Below, piece by piece: positions 1-8,306 of a stretch of 64,000 bases of DNA; position 1 is the first letter of the stretch; each line of letters begins with the position of its first letter. The position numbers were made by a program, and so were the translations under genes. The stretch comes from Cytophagaceae bacterium. Its GTDB lineage: Bacteria > Bacteroidota > Bacteroidia > Cytophagales > Spirosomataceae. Below the pieces are notes generated by a model. The model ran no database searches, was not told the origin of the DNA, and saw nothing but the letters and a program-made list of their open reading frames with translations. The stretch spans positions 1 through 64,000 of the forward strand of contig JAIXWL010000005.1 of assembly GCA_027491315.1 (NCBI GenBank), given 5' to 3'.

Positions 1-36
1 AGCTTGGCAGAGGTTCTACCCCAGGCCTTAAAGTAA
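1..36 (+). CDS. possible 3' end of an upstream gene (partial)
   Basis: Reading from base 1 in frame 1 gives 11 codons (SLAEVLPQALK) and a TAA at 34-36. The stretch is less AT-rich than the DNA that follows, and the stop sits immediately before the conserved leader block at 37, as expected if a preceding gene ends here. It is too short to assign to a family. It could also be chance reading. Confidence 0.25.
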   Translation, partial: SLAEVLPQALK

Positions 37-156
37 ATTATCAACTTCTTGATTAAAGTAGGACTTCTTTCCCTACTATTCTCTTTTATTTTTCCAGCAG
101 CTTTACTCCATGTTTGCAAGCCTTGGTGTCACCCGAAAAACCAATAAAGAGTAGGG
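37..156 (+). promoter_or_regulatory. conserved 120-bp promoter/leader block, copy 1
   Basis: This block aligns without gaps to 3973-4092. By hand count the outer parts match at 36 of 39 positions (37-75) and 42 of 45 positions (112-156), while the middle 36 bp are poorly conserved. CATGTTTG at 109-116 resembles the Bacteroidota -7 box TAnnTTTG with one mismatch, which would put transcription start near 123 and the second conserved part in the 5' UTR. The left arm (tccctac, 70-76) can also pair with the right arm (gtaggga, 151-157), so a structured leader RNA is an alternative. The first codon of the small secreted gene follows 25 nt after the block. Confidence 0.6.
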
Positions 157-180
157 ATTGAAAAATTTATATCCATTCAA

Positions 181-429
181 ATGAACTTGACAAAAAATTA
201 CACAAAACTTTCAAAAGTATTGGCTGCTACAATTCTTATTGGGCTTACAGGCATATCAGCCAAATCCAATGGTACTAGTTTACATTTTACCAAATGTTGT
301 ACTGCCACCATAAAGCTTGAAAATAGGGAGAGTACAATATCTGTTACAAAATGTAGAACTACACTTATTGATGCTTGTGATGCTGCTTACAGAGAAGCAC
401 GAAAAGCCGCAATAGCTCTGGGGGAATAA
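181..429 (+). CDS. small secreted cysteine-containing protein (82 aa)
   Basis: An 82-residue protein with a clear Sec-type signal: basic start, hydrophobic run at about residues 12-24, and a likely cut after the ISA at about 27. The mature part of roughly 55 residues has four cysteines in a loosely repeated pattern (FTKCCTATIK, then VTKCRTTLID, then DAC) and an Ala/Arg-rich C-terminal helix. I recognise no named family. It resembles in layout the small exported proteins (NVEALA or DUF6520 type) that Bacteroidota encode beside propeller and MauE-like genes, but I see no NVEALA motif. It is first in a run with a GLPGLI protein and an outer-membrane barrel protein, separated from them by a hairpin at 445-483. 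The start ATG lies 25 nt downstream of the conserved leader block. Confidence 0.65.
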   Translation: MNLTKNYTKLSKVLAATILIGLTGISAKSNGTSLHFTKCCTATIKLENRESTISVTKCRTTLIDACDAAYREARKAAIALGE

Positions 430-444
430 TTTACGAAAACGATG

Positions 445-483
445 ATTATCAGGGTAATCCTTTCTGATGATTATCCTGATAAT
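445..483 (+). other. intercistronic hairpin after the small secreted gene
   Basis: A perfect 9-bp stem (attatcagg at 445-453 with cctgataat at 475-483) encloses a 21-nt loop. It lies between the stop of the 82-aa gene and the GLPGLI start. There is no immediate T-run, so it is more likely an mRNA stabiliser or weak attenuator than a full terminator. The sequence gatgattatc occurs twice (441-450, 466-475), allowing an alternative pairing. Its position parallels the stronger hairpin at 4535-4567 in the second module. Confidence 0.5.
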
Positions 484-513
484 GTTAATGAACAAATAAT
501 ATTTTAATTCTAA

Positions 514-1278
514 ATGAAAATGAGAACATTAGTCATAACTCTATTTTTCACCATTCTAATTGGAATAAAATGTCTAGCACAAAATTCAGAAATAAATATA
601 GTTTATCAACTATTCAAAAACGGTGATATTATCCATTTCGATGTAAAAATATTGGATGATTTTTCAACTTATAAAGTTCAAGAAACAAAAGAAAATACCC
701 CAAATGATTTTGTAATGAAAGTCACGACTCCAGGAAGTTACATTTTTGAAAAAATTAAAAAAGAAAATAAACTCTATTATTCTGAGCCAATCATGACAAA
801 ACGCTTTTATGTAGTTGATTCATTACATCCGATGAAATGGAAAATAAATAAGGAAATAAAATCAATTCTTGGCTATCCTTGTCAAAAGGCTCAAACACAT
901 TTCAGAGGTAGAGACTACATTGCCTATTTTACAAAAAAAATACCCGTAAATAATGGTCCATATAAGTTTGGGGGATTACCTGGATTAATTCTTGAAGTAT
1001 ATTCAACAGATGGAGAAATTAAATTTTTGACGAAAAGCATCAATTTTTCGAAAAACACAATTACCCATGTTCCCTCATATACAAAGTATTATGGTAAATA
1101 CATTTCTCACCAAGATTTTGTTTCAACATATATAACTACTTGGAAAAACATTATTGCCAAGCTCAAATCAAGGGCTGAAGAGCATGTTCCTGGAGATGAA
1201 GACTACATCAAAAGCCATGAAATTGAAATCAAATATCCCGCATTACAGTTGGGAAGGGGAATGAATTTAAACGAATAG
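514..1278 (+). CDS. GLPGLI family protein
   Basis: A 254-residue exported protein. Residues 1-22 form a signal peptide ending CLAQ. The family's namesake motif GGLPGLILEVYSTDGEI is present at about residue 154. GLPGLI proteins are Bacteroidota-specific, of unknown function, thought to be periplasmic or outer-membrane associated, and are often coded beside TonB-type receptors or CarboxypepD_reg barrel proteins, as here. The gene follows the small secreted cysteine protein by 84 nt and precedes the barrel gene by 31 nt, so the three are probably co-transcribed. The AT-rich base composition matches the rest of 1-8306 and differs from the rpoB region. Confidence 0.88.
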   Translation: MKMRTLVITLFFTILIGIKCLAQNSEINIVYQLFKNGDIIHFDVKILDDFSTYKVQETKENTPNDFVMKVTTPGSYIFEKIKKENKLYYSEPIMTKRFYVVDSLHPMKWKINKEIKSILGYPCQKAQTHFRGRDYIAYFTKKIPVNNGPYKFGGLPGLILEVYSTDGEIKFLTKSINFSKNTITHVPSYTKYYGKYISHQDFVSTYITTWKNIIAKLKSRAEEHVPGDEDYIKSHEIEIKYPALQLGRGMNLNE

Positions 1279-1309
1279 GTCATTATAATCGGATAATCAA
1301 AAGCCTAAA

Positions 1310-3895
1310 ATGACCCAAATGAAATATTACTCAAATTCCCTTTTTAATATATCCGTGTTAGTTCTTTTGGGTTTAACTTTTACTAGTCCTGCTCAAAATC
1401 CAAAAATTTCTGCCAAAATTTTGGATGCAAGGAATGGCAAAAAGATACCTCAGGGCATAGCTATCATTGAAGATTCGCTTGAAAACCATATCAATTTCGC
1501 CCAAATTGAGTCCGGATTTCTATCTATTGAAATCCCCAGAAATACGACTATTTGGTTAACAGTTAATTCTTTAGGCTATCAGGGCTACCGCCATCAATTT
1601 CATGCTCAAGAGGCTATCAATAACACCCTACAAATATTCCTTCAATCTGATACTACTTATTTACTAGAGGAAGTTTACGTAAAAGCAAAACCTATTTATC
1701 AAAATCAAGACACATTAACATACAAGGTTCAAGCACTCAAACTTCCCGGTGATCAAAAAATTGAAGATTTACTTAAGAGGTTGCCTGGAATTACGGTGGA
1801 TGAATATTCAGGCAAAATAAAATACAAAAACAAAAGAATACAGACGGTGCTATTAGATGGGGAAAACTTATTAGATCAAAATTATAGCCTAGCCACTAAA
1901 AACATTGCCATTGATGATATTGATGAAGTTCAAGCCATTGAACATTTTACCGAGAATTCAATCATTAATAGCTTGGGGAGCTCTGAGGAGGTCGCCATAA
2001 ATTTAAAATTTAAGAAAAAATTTACCTTTTCAAATTCCAGTAGTATGGATGCAGGAATCATGGAAAGCTCAGTCAATGCACTTCAAATTAAGAATAACAC
2101 ATTGATTAGTACCCCCAAAATCAAAAGTATCTTCAATGGCTCATTTAACAATATCGGAAATAATAACACTAGCATAGAATTTTCTAATATTAATTCTAAT
2201 AACCCCGCCTACTCTTTTCTACCTGAAAAATTAATTCCCTTTAGTTCATCCTTTTTAAATTCGGATTTACAAAAAACGAATCGAAATAATCAACTTCAAT
2301 TAGACTTCAATTCAATCTTTAAACTTCATAATAAGTTTAAAATTAAGGTAAGCAGCGCTAGGTTAAAAGATAAATATTCCATTATCCAAGAAAACGTTAG
2401 TTCGATTAACTTACCAAATCAATCCTTTAGCATATCTGATAATCGCCATGAAAAAACCTTATCGGATTATTGGTTAAATTCTATTTATTCCAAATATCAA
2501 GCTTCTACAAGTTTAATTATTGAGTGGAAATACCAATATACCGATGCATCACTTCTGAATTCAACGGAACAAGTAATTAATTCAGCTATAGACTTTAACT
2601 CAAATCAAAATTTTCAACAGAGGGACCAATTAGCTGATGTTATTATCACTTCCAAAATAGGCCAAAATTCTGCTCTCATATATACCTTTCAAAGCCTCAT
2701 TAATACCAATGATTATGATTTGAATTACTTATATAAGTTATCAAACCCAGTAGATAAATTTCAACTTATCAATCATCGGAACCATTTGACAAAAAACACA
2801 ATTCAGTTGATACACGTTTTTATTCCTAAAATTTTAATTGCTGAAACTAAATTAGATGTTAATCAACTTAAGCAGACTATACTCAATTTCAGACAATCCA
2901 ATTATTTCGAAAAATCCATTAATCTGTCTCAAACCTTAAAAGGTAAGCTTTCCAATCTGGAATATAATTTCTCCGTCAATCATGAAGAAAATAGAATAGA
3001 AAATAATGAGCACGTAAATAATTCCTCAAGGTTTAACTACTCATTTAAAACAAGTTTTCCGTTTTTAGGTCAATTTATAGAATATAGAAACTCAAAATCA
3101 AATAAATCAAGCTACCGTAATTACATTTTAACCGATAGTGTTTTTTTAAATAGTCGATTTATTCGGCTTGATTCAAATCTAACCAATATCCCAATTTTAC
3201 ATACTCAGTCCATTAGCTTAGGGAATAACATTCAACATAATCTATACTATAATTTCAGTTATAGTCATTCCAAGCTGAACGGAGATTATTACCAGTCACA
3301 AGAAATTTCTGATTTGAATATTATACAAAAAAACATTTGGCTAAATCTTGCAAATGAAATGACCAATACTAAGCTTGAAGTAAACTTTTTTGTCCAACCT
3401 CTTACCATTAATTTGAAAAGTATAGTTGAGGTCTCCGCCTATCGATTTCCTAATATCATTAACAATTCCCAACCAAGAATCAATGAATCTTCAACTTTTC
3501 ATCTTGGAATGGGGTTCTCCACTGGTTTTTTAAAAGGTTTTTCCATCCAAAATATTTTTCATTCCTATTATAATGTAATTGAGAACAATAGCTCTTTGTT
3601 TGAAAATTTTACTTACCGAAACCAATTCCAATTATTCTTTCGATTAAAAAAACTAGCCTATCGATTTGATTGGCAATCTTTGCAATACAGCACTAATGCA
3701 GATCCATTGCATTTTTTGGATTTTTCAATTCTCTACCGTCCAGAAAAATTACCTTGGTCAATCACGCTTAGAGGAAATAACTTATTGAACTATACTCAAA
3801 AAACATTCGTCACCTTGTCGGACTACGCCACTTCTTCATATAGTAATCCACTATTGGGCAGGTCGATTCTACTCTCGATAGCATACAGCCTATAA
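1310..3895 (+). CDS. outer-membrane beta-barrel protein with CarboxypepD_reg-like N-terminal domain
   Basis: An 861-residue protein with a signal peptide (cut near ...TFTSPAQ, about residue 29), a carboxypeptidase-regulatory-like Ig fold at about 32-110 (ending LEEVYVKAK), and a plug-like segment at about 120-235 (KIEDLLKRLPGITVDEYSG, LLDGENLL). The remainder is a long Asn/Ser-rich barrel region of alternating polar and aromatic residues ending in SIAYSL. This is the layout of the TonB-receptor-like, often siderophore-independent barrel proteins that accompany GLPGLI genes. No TonB box was identified with confidence. Starts at 1310 or 1319 are both possible. It is the last gene of module A; the next conserved leader block begins 77 bp after its stop. 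Confidence 0.8.
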   Translation: MTQMKYYSNSLFNISVLVLLGLTFTSPAQNPKISAKILDARNGKKIPQGIAIIEDSLENHINFAQIESGFLSIEIPRNTTIWLTVNSLGYQGYRHQFHAQEAINNTLQIFLQSDTTYLLEEVYVKAKPIYQNQDTLTYKVQALKLPGDQKIEDLLKRLPGITVDEYSGKIKYKNKRIQTVLLDGENLLDQNYSLATKNIAIDDIDEVQAIEHFTENSIINSLGSSEEVAINLKFKKKFTFSNSSSMDAGIMESSVNALQIKNNTLISTPKIKSIFNGSFNNIGNNNTSIEFSNINSNNPAYSFLPEKLIPFSSSFLNSDLQKTNRNNQLQLDFNSIFKLHNKFKIKVSSARLKDKYSIIQENVSSINLPNQSFSISDNRHEKTLSDYWLNSIYSKYQASTSLIIEWKYQYTDASLLNSTEQVINSAIDFNSNQNFQQRDQLADVIITSKIGQNSALIYTFQSLINTNDYDLNYLYKLSNPVDKFQLINHRNHLTKNTIQLIHVFIPKILIAETKLDVNQLKQTILNFRQSNYFEKSINLSQTLKGKLSNLEYNFSVNHEENRIENNEHVNNSSRFNYSFKTSFPFLGQFIEYRNSKSNKSSYRNYILTDSVFLNSRFIRLDSNLTNIPILHTQSISLGNNIQHNLYYNFSYSHSKLNGDYYQSQEISDLNIIQKNIWLNLANEMTNTKLEVNFFVQPLTINLKSIVEVSAYRFPNIINNSQPRINESSTFHLGMGFSTGFLKGFSIQNIFHSYYNVIENNSSLFENFTYRNQFQLFFRLKKLAYRFDWQSLQYSTNADPLHFLDFSILYRPEKLPWSITLRGNNLLNYTQKTFVTLSDYATSSYSNPLLGRSILLSIAYSL

Positions 3896-3972
3896 ACTAG
3901 AAAAAAAATAAAGCAGGCTTAAGACATAAAGCTTATTTCAAAGTCAAATCAAGCCTAATTCAATAGATCATA

Positions 3973-4092
3973 ATTATCAACTTCTTGGATAAAATAGGAC
4001 TTCTTTCCCTATAAAATACTTTTTGAGGTCCATTAGCTTTACATCAAGTTTGCAAGTCTTGGTGTCACCCGAAAAACCAGAAAAGAGTAGGG
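3973..4092 (+). promoter_or_regulatory. conserved 120-bp promoter/leader block, copy 2
   Basis: Ungapped counterpart of 37-156. Here the promoter reading is stronger: TTG at 4023-4025, a 19-nt spacer, and CAAGTTTG at 4045-4052 match the Bacteroidota -33/-7 arrangement with one mismatch in the -7 box. Predicted transcription start is near 4059. The long-range pairing seen in copy 1 is kept through a wobble change (ccctat at 4008-4013 against gtaggg at 4087-4092). The first peptide ATG is 23 nt beyond the block. The left conserved part (3973-4011) would lie upstream of the start, in operator position, if the promoter reading is right. Confidence 0.62.
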
Positions 4093-4114
4093 GAAAAATT
4101 ATTTTTTTAAAAAA

Positions 4115-4297
4115 ATGGAAATACATGAAAAAAAAATCGTTGCCATTCTTTCCCTAATGACCCTAACATTAGGTATGTCAATAACACTAAAAGGCCACGA
4201 AGAGACCGTTGCAACATGCAAAAAGGCAAATCAAACTTGTATGATAACGATTAGCCATGGAGAAGAAACTAAATACCCTGGATTATTAACAATTTAA
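4115..4297 (+). CDS. small secreted peptide with CKKANQxCM motif (60 aa)
   Basis: A 60-residue protein: lysine-containing start, hydrophobic stretch at about 8-24, then a mature segment containing ATCKKANQTCMITIS. The two cysteines have six residues between them and the same motif recurs in the next gene (4337-4528), showing that the two are paralogues. The pattern suggests an exported peptide with one disulfide. I recognise no named family. The 23-nt distance from the conserved leader block and the shared downstream genes place it as the first cistron of module B. Confidence 0.65.
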   Translation: MEIHEKKIVAILSLMTLTLGMSITLKGHEETVATCKKANQTCMITISHGEETKYPGLLTI

Positions 4298-4336
4298 ATT
4301 CTTCAAAAAATACCTAATCTTTTAAATCTTATAACA

Positions 4337-4528
4337 ATGAACAATTCTAAATTTCTAAAACTATCACTTCCAATTCTGAGTGTAATTATTCTAGGATGCA
4401 TATTTACAAATGATGTTCGAGGTAAAGAAACACCTAATGCTAGTTGCAAAAAAGCAAATCAAGTTTGCATGGATTTACCATTTCCATATCCTGACCCTAA
4501 TGGGATACTTGTTATTGTACTAGATTAA
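4337..4528 (+). CDS. small secreted peptide with CKKANQxCM motif, paralogue (63 aa)
   Basis: A 63-residue protein with a hydrophobic signal at about 8-24 and a mature part carrying ASCKKANQVCMDLPFPYPDP. It contains the same motif as the preceding gene, while the tail is different and proline-rich. A cysteine within the hydrophobic segment (ILGCIF) could be a lipoprotein site, but the preceding residues fit a lipobox only loosely. It ends 7 nt before a strong intrinsic-terminator-like hairpin, so the two peptide genes form a transcription unit that would be expressed more than the genes behind the hairpin. Confidence 0.65.
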   Translation: MNNSKFLKLSLPILSVIILGCIFTNDVRGKETPNASCKKANQVCMDLPFPYPDPNGILVIVLD

Positions 4529-4534
4529 ATAAAT

Positions 4535-4569
4535 AAGAATGCTAGTCTCAAATGAACTAGCATTCTTTT
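4535..4569 (+). terminator. intrinsic terminator or attenuator between peptide genes and helper genes
   Basis: A perfect 12-bp stem (aagaatgctagt at 4535-4546 with actagcattctt at 4556-4567), a 9-nt loop, and trailing Ts. It stands between the second peptide gene and the propeller-like gene, which has no evident promoter of its own in the 15 nt before its ATG. Partial read-through would give many peptide transcripts and few helper transcripts, the usual arrangement for operons of small exported products. Confidence 0.8.
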
Positions 4570-4584
4570 CCAAAATAAATCCCA

Positions 4585-5598
4585 ATGAAGTTTAAACGAA
4601 TTTTAGCCGCTATTGTATCTGTCATTGTAATTATATTAGGTTATAGTTTACATCATTATTTAAAAACTAAAAAAACAGACTTCCTGTCCAATGGAGGCTT
4701 CAATAGAAACTATTTGCCAATTCAATCTGAATTGAAATTAGTTGCACCATCATTAGAAACATTATACCGATTTAGCCATTCAAGCAATACTAACTTCGCT
4801 ATTGGATATTGCGACAAATCATTAGTTAAAATCACTTTTGAAAATGGTCTTTTAAAATTCACTCCAATTAACAATCTTCCTATATTCTCCAATTGTGAAT
4901 ACTTTGGCGATGACATAAACGAGAATATATACGTTCAAAATGTAAATAATGTAATTACTACAAGTGTAAAACTATTCCATGGGTTTGATAAACGGATAAT
5001 AAGTAAAAAAGAGCAACTTGAAAAAGGCATTGAACCGGTAATTTTCAGAAACAATGAAATAATATGTGCGAGATTTCCAAAAGGGAAATGGCAATTCCGA
5101 TTTCAAAATATCAGAAATCCAGTCGAAAATAATTTGAACTTTTTTAAGCTAATTGATCAAGGATCAATTAAACATTTCCCCTCTAACAACACATTTATTT
5201 ACGTTTCTTTATTCACAAATGAAATAATTGAATTTGATTCAACATTCAATCTAATTCGCCAAGCAAAAACAATTGATACTATTAAATTAAAACCCAAAGC
5301 TAAGGAGATCAACAATAGCTTGATATTTTCATCTCCTCCAAGAGTCACAAATTATGATTTCTTCATTTCGAAAAAACAGTTATTTGTTCGATCTATAGTC
5401 AAGTCAAACCAAGAATCAGATTTTAAGAAAAAAATAGTTTTTGATATTTATGATATCAATAAAAGATTCAAGTATATCGGCTCTTTTTTCCTTAAGCACG
5501 AGAATGAAGATTATCCAACAGACATGCATCTACTAAATAATAACAATTTACTACTTCTATATGAAAACAGAATCGAAGTATTTAACATCACGATATAG
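4585..5598 (+). CDS. membrane-anchored protein, probably a 6-bladed beta-propeller type
   Basis: A 337-residue protein with one N-terminal membrane anchor (about 5-24, AAIVSVIVIILGYSLHHYL) and a long extracytoplasmic region rich in short beta-strand-like repeats (FAIGYCDKSLVKITF; FIYVSLFTNEIIEFD; NNLLLLYENRIEVFNITI). The strand periodicity and length fit the 6-bladed propeller proteins (BF3164 / DUF5128-like) that sit beside small exported proteins and MauE genes in Bacteroidota. The assignment rests on layout rather than a diagnostic motif. It overlaps the next gene by 38 nt, indicating translational coupling. Confidence 0.6.
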   Translation: MKFKRILAAIVSVIVIILGYSLHHYLKTKKTDFLSNGGFNRNYLPIQSELKLVAPSLETLYRFSHSSNTNFAIGYCDKSLVKITFENGLLKFTPINNLPIFSNCEYFGDDINENIYVQNVNNVITTSVKLFHGFDKRIISKKEQLEKGIEPVIFRNNEIICARFPKGKWQFRFQNIRNPVENNLNFFKLIDQGSIKHFPSNNTFIYVSLFTNEIIEFDSTFNLIRQAKTIDTIKLKPKAKEINNSLIFSSPPRVTNYDFFISKKQLFVRSIVKSNQESDFKKKIVFDIYDINKRFKYIGSFFLKHENEDYPTDMHLLNNNNLLLLYENRIEVFNITI

Positions 5599-6001
5599 CT
5601 CTATATTCCAGACAATTACCATTTTTTTTGATTTTTCAATTTACTTCTATTCAGGAGTAGATAAACTTGTTCATTTTGATCAGTTTATTATAAATTTTGG
5701 AAGGTCTCCTTTTGCACCAACCAAGTTCTTATCTGAAACTGGAGCCATTGTTGTCATAATTGAAATAGGATTATCAATGTTGCTGTTTATAAAAAGAGCT
5801 CGAAAAATAACTTTATTTTTTTTAGCCGGCTTATCGTTGATATTCACCATCTACATCTTACTTATGATAACTTACTCTCCTTCCCTTCCCTGCTCATGTG
5901 GAGGAATTGTGAGTTTTCTAAATTGGAACGAACACCTAGTACTAACAATATACCTAACCGCTAGTTCATTTTATGCAGCAATTATCCACGAAAACAATTA
6001 A
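5561..6001 (+). CDS. MauE/DoxX-like redox-associated membrane protein
   Basis: A 146-residue integral membrane protein with about four hydrophobic segments (approx. 15-32, 60-75, 80-103, 122-140). The first is followed by YSGVDKLVHFDQF and the third loop carries SLPCSCGGIVSFLNWNEHL, the Cys-x-Cys-Gly-Gly site typical of MauE/DoxX-family proteins. MauE is needed for cysteine-rich MauA maturation in methylamine utilisers, and homologues are thought to move electrons to or from periplasmic thiols. Its coupling with two cysteine-peptide genes suggests it handles their disulfides; that link is inference. It overlaps the preceding gene by 38 nt and the next by 29 nt. Confidence 0.8.
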   Translation: MKTESKYLTSRYSSIFQTITIFFDFSIYFYSGVDKLVHFDQFIINFGRSPFAPTKFLSETGAIVVIIEIGLSMLLFIKRARKITLFFLAGLSLIFTIYILLMITYSPSLPCSCGGIVSFLNWNEHLVLTIYLTASSFYAAIIHENN

Positions 6002-8306
6002 ATGTATTTTTCTAACTCTTTGCTTTCTCCAATTAACTTGTCAAGAAATTTTCGGACAAATTTCAATTCAAAAAAAGCACCAAGAATTGGAGTTCCGAAT
6101 ACTTGACTCACTTAATATGCATCCGATTCCATTTATGCAGTTTTTGATTAAGGAATTTAACCCCACAGGAGATTCTTTACGAAAAACTGGCATAACAAAT
6201 GAAGCCGGTTTTGCCCAAATATCAATTACAAATTCCTCAAAAATCTATTTTGAAAGCATTTTATATTCAAAACACAGTGTTTTAACTAATGACTTAAAGA
6301 CTGGATTTGTAAATAATATCTTACTAATTCCACTTAAAAATGAACTTAAAGAAATTGTGGTTAACGATCGACCACTCTATAGTGTAAATAAAATAGAACT
6401 TCGTGTTAAGAAAATCCACAAATCGCAAGCCCCTGTAATACAGAATTTTCTTAAAACAATAAATGGAATAAGCCTACAATCAAGCGATGATAAATATCTT
6501 GGTAAAATCATTGTCTTTTACTTAGATGGAATAAAAATCGAATCAAAAATAATTAAGGAATCTGCGATAGAATCTTTTGAAAAACTTGAAATAATTAGTG
6601 CTTCAGATGGAGAATATTGGATGAAACCTTCTGAAGTAATCTTTAATTTCATATCGAAAAAACCTAAAACCCCTACTTTAGGTATACAAACAAATACTGA
6701 ATTAGCAATTCTTTTTCCTTATTCAAGTCAAAATCTAGGCATTTACTATTTGGGGAAAAGATCTAGTTTTAGAGTTTCTTCACTCCTTTATTCCTATGGT
6801 CAAAATGTTCAGAATAACTTAAATCAAGAAATTAACCAAATTAAATCACATTCTAAACAACTGCTTGAGACTACAACTAATCCAAATTTCAATTCATTCA
6901 TTTTCAACTATAACCTTGATAGCTTGACTACCATTTCATTCCACTTTGGATATCAAAATATTCACAATTCCCAAAATAGCAATTTCACTTTCAGCCCTTT
7001 GATTACAGAAAGCTTAGACCAATTACAATCCGAAAGCAATAGACTGTATAATAAATCAAAAATTAGTAATTTGATATTGTTAAAACGTCAAAATCATAAA
7101 TTATTTATCAGATATGATTACGGCAATTCTAATATCAAAAATCAATATCTTGATCCTAATGAATTAAATCAGGCCACCTATGAAAAATCAAATTCAACCT
7201 ATATCAATTATGCAAATAGATTACAATTATCTAAACTCACTAAACTAAATACGACACTTTCTTGGGAAAATAAGAATTCTAATATCCAGTATAATTTCCA
7301 AAATGACAATTCGGTAGCATCATATTTTAATTCAAATTTTATTGGCCTAAGATCCATATTCGCCACTTCACTTAAAAATATTTCAATATTAATAGGAGGG
7401 CGATTAGATTTGATTAACCAAGAATTTGAGTCAAATTCGGCTAAATACCGTCACAAAAATAAGGTGAGATTTTTGCCAACTTTATCACTTCAATATGAAT
7501 CTGAAAAGATTGGAAACTTTAATTTCAGTATAAACTCTGACTATATTTTGCCAGATATCAGCCAACTGGCTAGCTTTTCTAGAAGAATAGATCCATTTAA
7601 AAGTATATTGGGCAATAATATGTTAGATACTGAGAATAATATTGATCTAAGTCTAACACATATGATCAATATAAATCAACTTGAACTGTCTACCGAATTA
7701 GGATATCAAGAATCTGATAACCAATTAGGCTATTCTCCTTACAGAATTGAAAAAAATCAACTCATTTATAGTTATACCAATCTAGGAAAATCTAAAAATA
7801 TGTCTTTCCAAATAAGTTCAAGTCTAGCATTAAGCAAATCCATAACTTGTCAGGTAAATTTGGCACAAAAAATTGCTCAATTCTATTTGAATCCAATTTG
7901 GGATTATTCAAATTTTAATTCTAATTGGTTACCTATTTTTTCTATTTCAAATTCGTGGGACTATCAAATATCAAGTAGATTTAGTGCTTCGCTAAATATG
8001 TATTTTGATAATTATTCATATGAATTCTTTGAAACCAAACAATATTTTTTACCTAATGCAGGTTTGACATTTAATGGTTCAATGGGGAGAGATTGGAATT
8101 TTTCAATGGTTTGGAATACCATATTTGCGAATGCAAATTTAGAAAAAACACATACTTCTCAACAGAATTACATATCAAACTCAAGCATAATGACGAATTA
8201 TCGTTATGTTTCTATTTCCATCCAAAAATCATTTGGAAAAAAACAGAACAATGTACCAGAAAGTAGTACAGCTGATGAAGTTAAACGAAAATTCAAGACC
8301 ATTTAA
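5973..8306 (+). CDS. outer-membrane beta-barrel protein with CarboxypepD_reg-like domain
   Basis: A 777-residue protein with a signal peptide (cut near EIFGQ, about residue 29), an N-terminal Ig-like regulatory domain (about 36-125, ending ELKEIVVNDRPLY), a plug-like stretch (about 140-225, VIQNFLKTINGISLQSS ... FYLDGIKIE), and a long barrel region of alternating polar and aromatic residues. It is laid out like the 861-aa protein of module A but is clearly divergent. It begins inside the MauE-like gene (29-nt overlap) and ends 69 nt before a strong bidirectional terminator, closing module B. Confidence 0.78.
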   Translation: MQQLSTKTIKCIFLTLCFLQLTCQEIFGQISIQKKHQELEFRILDSLNMHPIPFMQFLIKEFNPTGDSLRKTGITNEAGFAQISITNSSKIYFESILYSKHSVLTNDLKTGFVNNILLIPLKNELKEIVVNDRPLYSVNKIELRVKKIHKSQAPVIQNFLKTINGISLQSSDDKYLGKIIVFYLDGIKIESKIIKESAIESFEKLEIISASDGEYWMKPSEVIFNFISKKPKTPTLGIQTNTELAILFPYSSQNLGIYYLGKRSSFRVSSLLYSYGQNVQNNLNQEINQIKSHSKQLLETTTNPNFNSFIFNYNLDSLTTISFHFGYQNIHNSQNSNFTFSPLITESLDQLQSESNRLYNKSKISNLILLKRQNHKLFIRYDYGNSNIKNQYLDPNELNQATYEKSNSTYINYANRLQLSKLTKLNTTLSWENKNSNIQYNFQNDNSVASYFNSNFIGLRSIFATSLKNISILIGGRLDLINQEFESNSAKYRHKNKVRFLPTLSLQYESEKIGNFNFSINSDYILPDISQLASFSRRIDPFKSILGNNMLDTENNIDLSLTHMININQLELSTELGYQESDNQLGYSPYRIEKNQLIYSYTNLGKSKNMSFQISSSLALSKSITCQVNLAQKIAQFYLNPIWDYSNFNSNWLPIFSISNSWDYQISSRFSASLNMYFDNYSYEFFETKQYFLPNAGLTFNGSMGRDWNFSMVWNTIFANANLEKTHTSQQNYISNSSIMTNYRYVSISIQKSFGKKQNNVPESSTADEVKRKFKTI

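Follow-up and report, generated by a model that had tools for sequence, protein, structure and literature searches.

A repeated control head with exchangeable small-peptide cargo in Aquirufa, and the case for an antagonistic role

What is the function of two consecutive gene sets that begin with the same leader block, continue with tiny cysteine peptides and end with an outer-membrane barrel protein? The window in which we encountered them is the first 64 kb (64,000 nt) of contig C12 (JAIXWL010000005.1) of assembly GCA_027491315.1, a genome of 2.92 Mb in 17 contigs that belongs to the genus Aquirufa, in the order Cytophagales. A first-pass annotation had described in this window two gene sets with a common leader, tiny Cys peptides, a hairpin, helper genes and a barrel, and this description was borne out, with a shared block of 121 nt that is 82% identical between its copies. 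We consider it probable that the two sets, here called modules A and B, are interchangeable cassettes for secreted peptides and stand behind copies of one resident control head; an antagonistic, bacteriocin-like role is the most likely one for them. Comparison of related sequences establishes the parts and geometry of this putative head, as well as the occurrence of different cargoes, including a class IIb bacteriocin, behind heads of the same kind.

The 121-nt direct repeat occupies positions 36-156 (copy 1) and 3972-4092 (copy 2) of the window (blastn E 2.7e-28 for copy 2); like all window features given below, both copies lie on the forward strand, and each comprises an operator-like part, a promoter-like box and an RNA motif, DUF805b. 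A third copy, 93% identical to copy 1, opens contig C8 of the same genome, and the first 119 nt of C8 are exactly identical to the first 119 nt of C12: the assembly broke at this repeat. As the window begins at the contig edge (C12:1), 35 nt before copy 1, the sequence preceding copy 1 is out of view. When 222 family genomes were searched with a head core pattern (up to two mismatches), 24 sites were found in 14 genomes, compared with one match for a reversed-pattern control, and 22 of the 24 fall in 12 of 38 Aquirufa genomes. A core-pattern match in G041 lies inside a gene and was set aside as chance; one in G145 stands ahead of a 531-aa gene. The first-pass annotation had named beforehand, as counting against it, the occurrence of the leader before unrelated genes. 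In the genomes of relatives, blocks matching most of the 121 nt stood only ahead of variable cargo; DUF805b by itself also precedes ordinary conserved genes, a point to which we return.

The final 35 nt of the block correspond to the DUF805b RNA (Rfam RF02914), a hairpin about 23 nt ahead of the start codon that presumably lies in the 5' untranslated region (5'-UTR) of each module. Ahead of module A (123..157) it scores 35.5 bits, 0.1 under the gathering score of 35.6, and ahead of module B (4059..4093) it passes that score with 35.8 bits. Upstream are operator-like inverted half-sites, TAGGA...TCCCTA, read from the sequence at 58..76 (copy 1) and 3995..4011 (copy 2), and a candidate -7 box: CAGCTTTA at 98..105, which is one base off the pattern [TG]AnnTTT[ACG] and was missed by the pattern search, and TAGCTTTA at 4034..4041, which fits it. 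The -7 consensus of Bacteroidota is TAnnTTTG. Scans for sigma-70-type promoters (34 sites vs a shuffled mean of 45) and for terminators (2 terminator-like sites vs 3.6 expected from shuffles) were discarded as evidence.

Across Aquirufa we assembled 53 DUF805b-type sites, 48 from a search at E<=1e-4 (23 of 38 genomes) and five from weaker or pattern matches, and sorted them by eye, on core type and cargo, into two classes, "cassette" (28 sites) and "other" (25 sites). The [TG]AnnTTT[ACG] box stands 25-29 nt upstream of DUF805b at 21 of the 28 cassette sites. The distance from the end of DUF805b to the ATG is 19-34 nt for 24 of the 28 cassette sites; for the other sites it is always 17-29 nt (25 of 25). 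The four cassette exceptions have spacings of 0, 116 and 119 nt and, in one case, no open reading frame (ORF). With such spacing, DUF805b acts like part of the 5'-UTR. Upstream of the box, 15/28 cassette sites and 0/25 other sites have direct repeats whose lag is exactly 11 nt (shuffled mean 1.1), and the next commonest lags at cassette sites are 19 (seven sites) and 22 (five sites). By eye, an inverted half-site closes many lag-11 repeats; half-site sequence varies among heads (TAGGA, GGTAC and TACTAC types), and the window copies retain TAGGA...TCCCTA only. The common repeats, promoter-like box and DUF805b are consistent with the earlier proposal that the leader co-regulates both gene sets.

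A further component stands upstream of the head in Aquirufa relatives, namely a gene for a stand-alone GerE/LuxR-type helix-turn-helix (HTH) protein, mostly of 63-79 aa (PF00196 5.2e-15, for a query typed as a blend of near-identical relatives). By profile, this gene lies within 600 nt upstream of 12/28 cassette sites, 0/25 other Aquirufa sites and 1/27 sites elsewhere in the order, with upstream sequence of less than 300 nt at four of the 28 cassette sites and one other site. The contrast between cassette and other sites gives a Fisher p of about 1e-4, uncorrected for relatedness. Two DUF805b sites that precede an outer-membrane-like protein, L126 (G000:C15:31425) and L120 (G002:C44:70621), have a small gene ending immediately upstream that appears by eye to encode an XRE-like HTH protein.

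The cargo behind these heads is diverse. Cargo A (82-aa Cys peptide, GLPGLI protein and barrel) is present in the window genome and in A. rosea (G016), with diverged forms in L061, L067 and L121; the GLPGLI-type proteins of L061 and L121 were confirmed by family test, and L121 has, by eye, the TACTAC...CTAGGTAGG operator type of the bacteriocin sites. Cargo B (two C-x6-C peptides, 337-aa protein, MauE and barrel) occurs in the window, L066 and L074, and cargo C consists of a Cys protein of about 99 aa with a protein of about 219 aa. Other heads precede glycine-rich peptides beside SpoIIM (L065, 2.4e-17; L072, 1.2e-7; L081, 3.8e-14); L072 and L081 additionally contain an M48 protease. In L068 the head is followed by an 84-aa Cys peptide and the ATPase of an ABC transporter, and in L071, L073 and L078, by eye, by lipoprotein-like proteins whose tail is rich in Cys, next to a small membrane protein. 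Behind heads G004:C11, G001:C2:308591 and G020:C19:18239 the cargo is degenerate or unclear.

In L081 and L082 the cargo comprises two double-glycine peptides, which follow an HTH gene and a leader of the DUF805b type that, at 28.1 bits, does not reach the gathering score. One peptide of the L082 pair scores 26.7 against the class IIb bacteriocin model TIGR03949 (cut-off 21.5) and the other 13.9. The L082 island also contains HlyD and a Peptidase_C39 ABC exporter (PF03412 2.4e-34; TIGR01193 510.9, below the cut-off of 523.85), of which only a fragment is left in L081. This class IIb bacteriocin cargo is our main reason for reading the head as a bacteriocin-type control head. The peptide at 3250-3429 of L082 and that of L127 (G001:C1:451171) have a common tail, GVLDG(I/V)K.NT...LFG..IF, with a double-glycine leader in L082 and a Sec-like leader in L127, an apparent leader swap; both follow DUF805b and precede a similar-looking protein of 318-353 aa.

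Does cargo travel with its head? We compared the 95 nt before DUF805b among 14 of the 28 heads, picked as occurring several per genome or carrying recurring cargo. Heads of one genome with differing cargo are 98% identical between C12 and C8 (cargoes A and C) and 88% identical in A. rosea (C and A), three G004 heads are mutually 95-100% identical, and the median identity of ten within-genome pairs is 82.5. Between genomes, the median is 63 for pairs with the same cargo (n=11) and 62 for pairs with different cargo (n=70). The 60 nt after DUF805b follow the opposite trend, with 57 within genomes and 68 for the same cargo. In addition, the P5CDH-rpoB site of the window genome (G000) holds cargo A (with B) and its rluA-rpsG site holds C; relative to this arrangement A. 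rosea shows a swap, with C at the P5CDH-rpoB site and A at the rluA site. On these comparisons, cargo moves independently of the resident head.

Module A begins with an exported-looking 82-aa peptide (181..429) that has a hydrophobic N-terminus and four Cys and matches no family; here and elsewhere, signal peptides and export were judged from N-terminal hydrophobicity. It is followed by a 254-aa GLPGLI family protein (514..1278; TIGR01200 147.5 bits, cut-off 50) and an 861-aa protein (1310..3895) that profile comparisons and relatives identify as a SusC/TonB-receptor-like outer-membrane protein. The latter gives no Pfam match of its own at E<=1, OMP_b-brl_3 included; by profile it matches a SusC homologue (4.1e-9) and carboxypeptidase M (0.0036), and PF13620 (CarboxypepD_reg) is found in 8 of the 13 members of its alignment (A4). 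A search of plasmids with the 82-aa peptide and a search of phages with the 861-aa protein, the only two of this kind, returned no match, and a plasmid or phage location was set aside.

A scan with an alignment of A-type barrels recovered relatives of the 861-aa protein at 17 loci; four of these are Aquirufa contigs already read and 13 come from Flavobacterium, Maribacter, Spirosomataceae and other Bacteroidota, mostly metagenome-assembled genomes (MAGs). By eye, 11 of these 13 carry a small exported-looking Cys-pair peptide directly upstream of one or more GLPGLI genes and a barrel, while L154 and L155 have no such set. All ten GLPGLI genes tested from the 11 loci pass TIGR01200 (102.7-180.7 bits); the eleventh locus, L141, is in a MAG labelled Flavobacterium sp. 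and its module is almost the same as the one in A. antheringensis, which may reflect a binning or labelling error. A mechanical peptide filter passed 12/15 GLPGLI-barrel loci vs 18/363 control genes, eight of which are themselves cassette or A-type peptides, and 5/700 shuffles; L144, L145 and L153 fail it though a Cys peptide is visible by eye. The A-type peptides appear by eye to follow a common plan (Cys, short strands, Cys, helix), and their homology rests on position and this Cys plan because the MAFFT alignment is poor outside the first Cys. We found no description of a Cys-pair peptide gene ahead of GLPGLI and barrel genes in the literature searched, and, judged from these loci, peptide-GLPGLI-barrel is a recurring Bacteroidota gene set without a name.

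Module B begins with two exported-looking peptides of 60 aa (4115..4297, CKKANQTC) and 63 aa (4337..4528, CKKANQVC), which have CKKANQxC in common and homologues in L066 and L074. They are followed by a 337-aa protein (4585..5598), a MauE family membrane protein (5561..6001; PF07291 4.7e-19, 69.4 bits, gathering 27) and a 777-aa outer-membrane barrel protein (5973..8306; OMP_b-brl_3, PF14905, 6.8e-18, 65.3 bits, gathering 27). At E<=1e-4, 8/345 class genomes, among them that of the window, contain a relative of the 337-aa protein; outside Aquirufa the matches are partial. Five of eight such loci were read: L209, L210 and L211 have a DUF6520 peptide above cut-off and L213 one just under, and L215 instead encodes three small C-x7-C peptides that match no family. 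In L210 a test showed MauE fused to the 337-aa relative, and by eye MauE is next to or fused with it in L209, L211 and L213. This DUF6520/MauE company suggests that module B is a variant of that arrangement with an added barrel. Wide occurrence of the barrel itself was rejected: at E<=1e-20 it is found in 2/291 order genomes, both Aquirufa (the genome of L074 is not among the matches listed).

The claims of the first-pass annotation about individual genes fared unequally. Co-occurrence of peptide, helper and barrel was upheld by the 11 of 13 loci and the filter result above, and MauE/DUF6520 company for relatives of module B was found as expected. CarboxypepD_reg could be traced only in relatives of the 861-aa protein, neither that protein nor the 777-aa protein giving a direct match (at E<=1 for the latter). 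The 337-aa "propeller" remains a candidate fold, with no Pfam or NCBIfam match and YjiK as best PDB profile match at E 0.21. Membership of the peptides in NVEALA or DUF6520 was not supported by any profile match, and all three window peptides lack a Pfam or NCBIfam family at E<=1. The annotation overlooked the Rfam identity of the leader's RNA part, the LuxR-type HTH gene that often stands upstream in relatives, and the bacteriocin-type cargo of such heads.

Each module has a hairpin between its peptide and helper genes. In module A it is a 15-bp hairpin at 445..483, ahead of the GLPGLI gene (-18.0 kcal/mol, z -4.0), and in module B it follows the peptide cistrons at 4535..4567 (-16.0 kcal/mol, z -7.5), a position kept in L066 and L074. 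Overall, 14/20 gaps from the last peptide cistron to the first helper reach z<=-3, compared with 6/25 other gaps (mononucleotide shuffles; p 0.0024, or 0.0062 after dropping two near-identical rows), with two gaps too short to test and L146, which has a weak hairpin, counted as misses. The position of the hairpin is conserved and its sequence is not. This fits a peptide made in excess of its helpers; protection of a 3' end would look alike.

DUF805b extends well beyond the genus, to 120/241 order genomes at E<=1e-6, four of the 120 being Aquirufa. Outside Aquirufa we read high-scoring sites, comprising 53 elements found by pattern across 48 loci; for 48 of these elements there is an ATG ORF no more than 60 nt away. 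Of these ORFs, 18/48 are double-glycine-type by rule, a share that describes high-scoring sites and is no estimate for all DUF805b sites, 15 have a signal-like N-terminus and 15 have neither, compared with 5/106 double-glycine-type among control ORFs of the same loci (p about 6e-7; by this rule L194 looks like a false positive and two more peptides are missed). By eye, some of the peptides look like lanthipeptide precursors. Loci from other genera in which DUF805b directly precedes a double-glycine-type peptide include L160, L162, L164, L172, L173, L175, L180, L184, L187 and L191. The stem covaries outside Aquirufa (155/195 cells paired, maximum of 500 shuffles 127) and in Aquirufa (102/140, shuffle maximum 97), and the cassette class taken alone is uninformative (36/45 cells paired vs a shuffle mean of 34.5 and maximum of 38); the sites are mostly model-chosen, which leans toward pairing.

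We therefore propose the following model. A full head would consist of the LuxR/GerE HTH gene, operator repeats, a promoter and the DUF805b hairpin in the 5'-UTR, with the HTH gene of the window head either beyond the contig edge or absent. The HTH protein would bind the repeats and switch the cassettes, DUF805b would tune translation or mRNA stability of the first gene, and the hairpin after the peptide cistrons would let the peptide exceed its helpers, in which case the peptide would be the product. Peptides might cross the inner membrane by Sec and form disulfides, assisted in module B by MauE. The SusC-like barrel and GLPGLI protein might then carry them over the outer membrane, for which Myxococcus Oar offers a precedent of a TonB-dependent transporter acting as exporter (PMC6434023), or might protect the producer. 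Mature peptides would act against competitors.

Several observations weigh against this interpretation. The division into cassette and other sites was drawn by eye after the neighborhoods had been seen, the sites share descent so that counts are not independent, and the head comparison is limited to 14 hand-chosen heads of 28. Heads within a genome can also differ, by identities of 50-77% in G020 and 73-75% for the second copy in the window. DUF805b stands ahead of ordinary conserved genes at 25/53 Aquirufa sites, and non-Aquirufa A-type loci lack it (0/12 at gathering threshold), indicating that the peptide-GLPGLI-barrel set works without this head. Two HTH queries were unmatched in the window genome (E<=1e-8; E<=1e-3), evidence that the assembly break at the head makes weak, and copy 2 has no HTH gene before it, the modules being in tandem. 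None of the three window peptides matches a bacteriocin family, and their leaders are of the Sec type, not the double-glycine type: their N-termini are hydrophobic by eye and no exporter gene is present in 1-8306, unlike a double-glycine class II system. Finally, no immunity gene was recognized in module A or B.

Some of these points suit other explanations. Because DUF805b also precedes conserved, often exported proteins, and because the peptide-GLPGLI-barrel set exists elsewhere without it, the modules could be ordinary envelope operons in which the leader is nothing more than a strong promoter, duplicated along with its 5'-UTR, and the peptides serve the barrel in its structure or assembly. 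We regard this as quite unlikely, since cargo turnover, swapping between sites and bacteriocin cargo would be unexpected for envelope housekeeping. TonB-type receptors usually import, and relatives of the module A barrel have a CarboxypepD_reg domain and SusC-like N-terminus, two of them also matching Plug weakly, below threshold (E 0.025 and 0.079); the Cys peptides might accordingly be secreted metallophore- or hemophore-like carriers that return through the SusC/TonB-receptor-like barrel, GLPGLI and MauE being their partners in the periplasm. This strikes us as unlikely, given how strongly the peptides vary outside the Cys pair and given a control-head type common to them and the class IIb bacteriocin cassette. 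The peptides might also be pheromones, sensed via the barrel, to which the LuxR-type HTH protein responds. Against this, near-identical heads within one genome precede peptides that bear no apparent resemblance to each other, and an HTH protein of about 69 aa with a GerE domain has no space for a receiver or sensor domain. Signaling would account for the autoregulatory layout of HTH gene, repeats and peptide, and peptide-regulated bacteriocin loci exist in other phyla, but we give it the least credence of these explanations.

Exchangeable bacteriocin-like cassettes thus remain the interpretation we favor. A broader proposition, possible though doubtful, is that they represent a widespread unnamed Bacteroidota class of Sec-exported disulfide-hairpin bacteriocins, released or self-tolerated via dedicated GLPGLI proteins and SusC/TonB-receptor-like barrels rather than peptide ABC exporters, with DUF805b as an order-wide 5'-UTR control of a bacteriocin/secreted-peptide regulon and cargo swapped beneath LuxR-type heads. 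Blp-type bacteriocin islands of pneumococci likewise have one regulatory head and strain-variable bacteriocin cargo; they resemble the Aquirufa loci in this combination and differ in phylum, RNA element and exporters, and none of the heads read was seen to have a peptide pheromone or histidine kinase next to it. In the literature searched, the closest counterparts among small Cys bacteriocins of the phylum are the bacteroidetocins, class IIa-like bacteriocins of Bacteroidetes whose double-glycine leaders are 15-16 aa long and whose ABC exporter carries a double-glycine peptidase (PMC6671954). They are alike in small Cys peptides, a thiol-redox partner, a membrane protein and a short operon, whereas in the window Sec-type leaders are combined with a barrel.

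Among loci lacking a described role, module A resembles pairs of GLPGLI (TIGR01200) and CarboxypepD_reg/SusC-like barrel genes in its helper and barrel and differs in the hypervariable Cys-pair peptide gene in front, so that these pairs, whose function is unknown, gain a candidate substrate. Module B resembles the DUF6520/MauE loci of Bacteroidota in the company of 337-aa relative, MauE and small peptide, and differs in that its peptides are not DUF6520 and in the added OMP_b-brl_3 barrel and DUF805b head. The scanned A-type peptides of 82, 61 and 121 aa and both B peptides match no family, which points to a reservoir of small, unannotated Cys peptides across Bacteroidota; if they are antagonistic, a modular arms locus in freshwater bacteria is exposed. 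DUF805b, to our knowledge an orphan RNA family, gains a testable biological setting. The motif was reportedly first described in NAR in 2017, outside the literature searched, which makes no mention of DUF805b. The element studied here agrees with RF02914 in sequence, hairpin and position before the start codon; it differs from the Rfam entry, a cis-regulatory candidate of unknown function, in that it forms a single layer of a larger head, together with repeats and, often, an HTH gene. At L204, DUF805b is followed by a protein that resembles, by eye, a DUF805 membrane protein, matching the name of the family.

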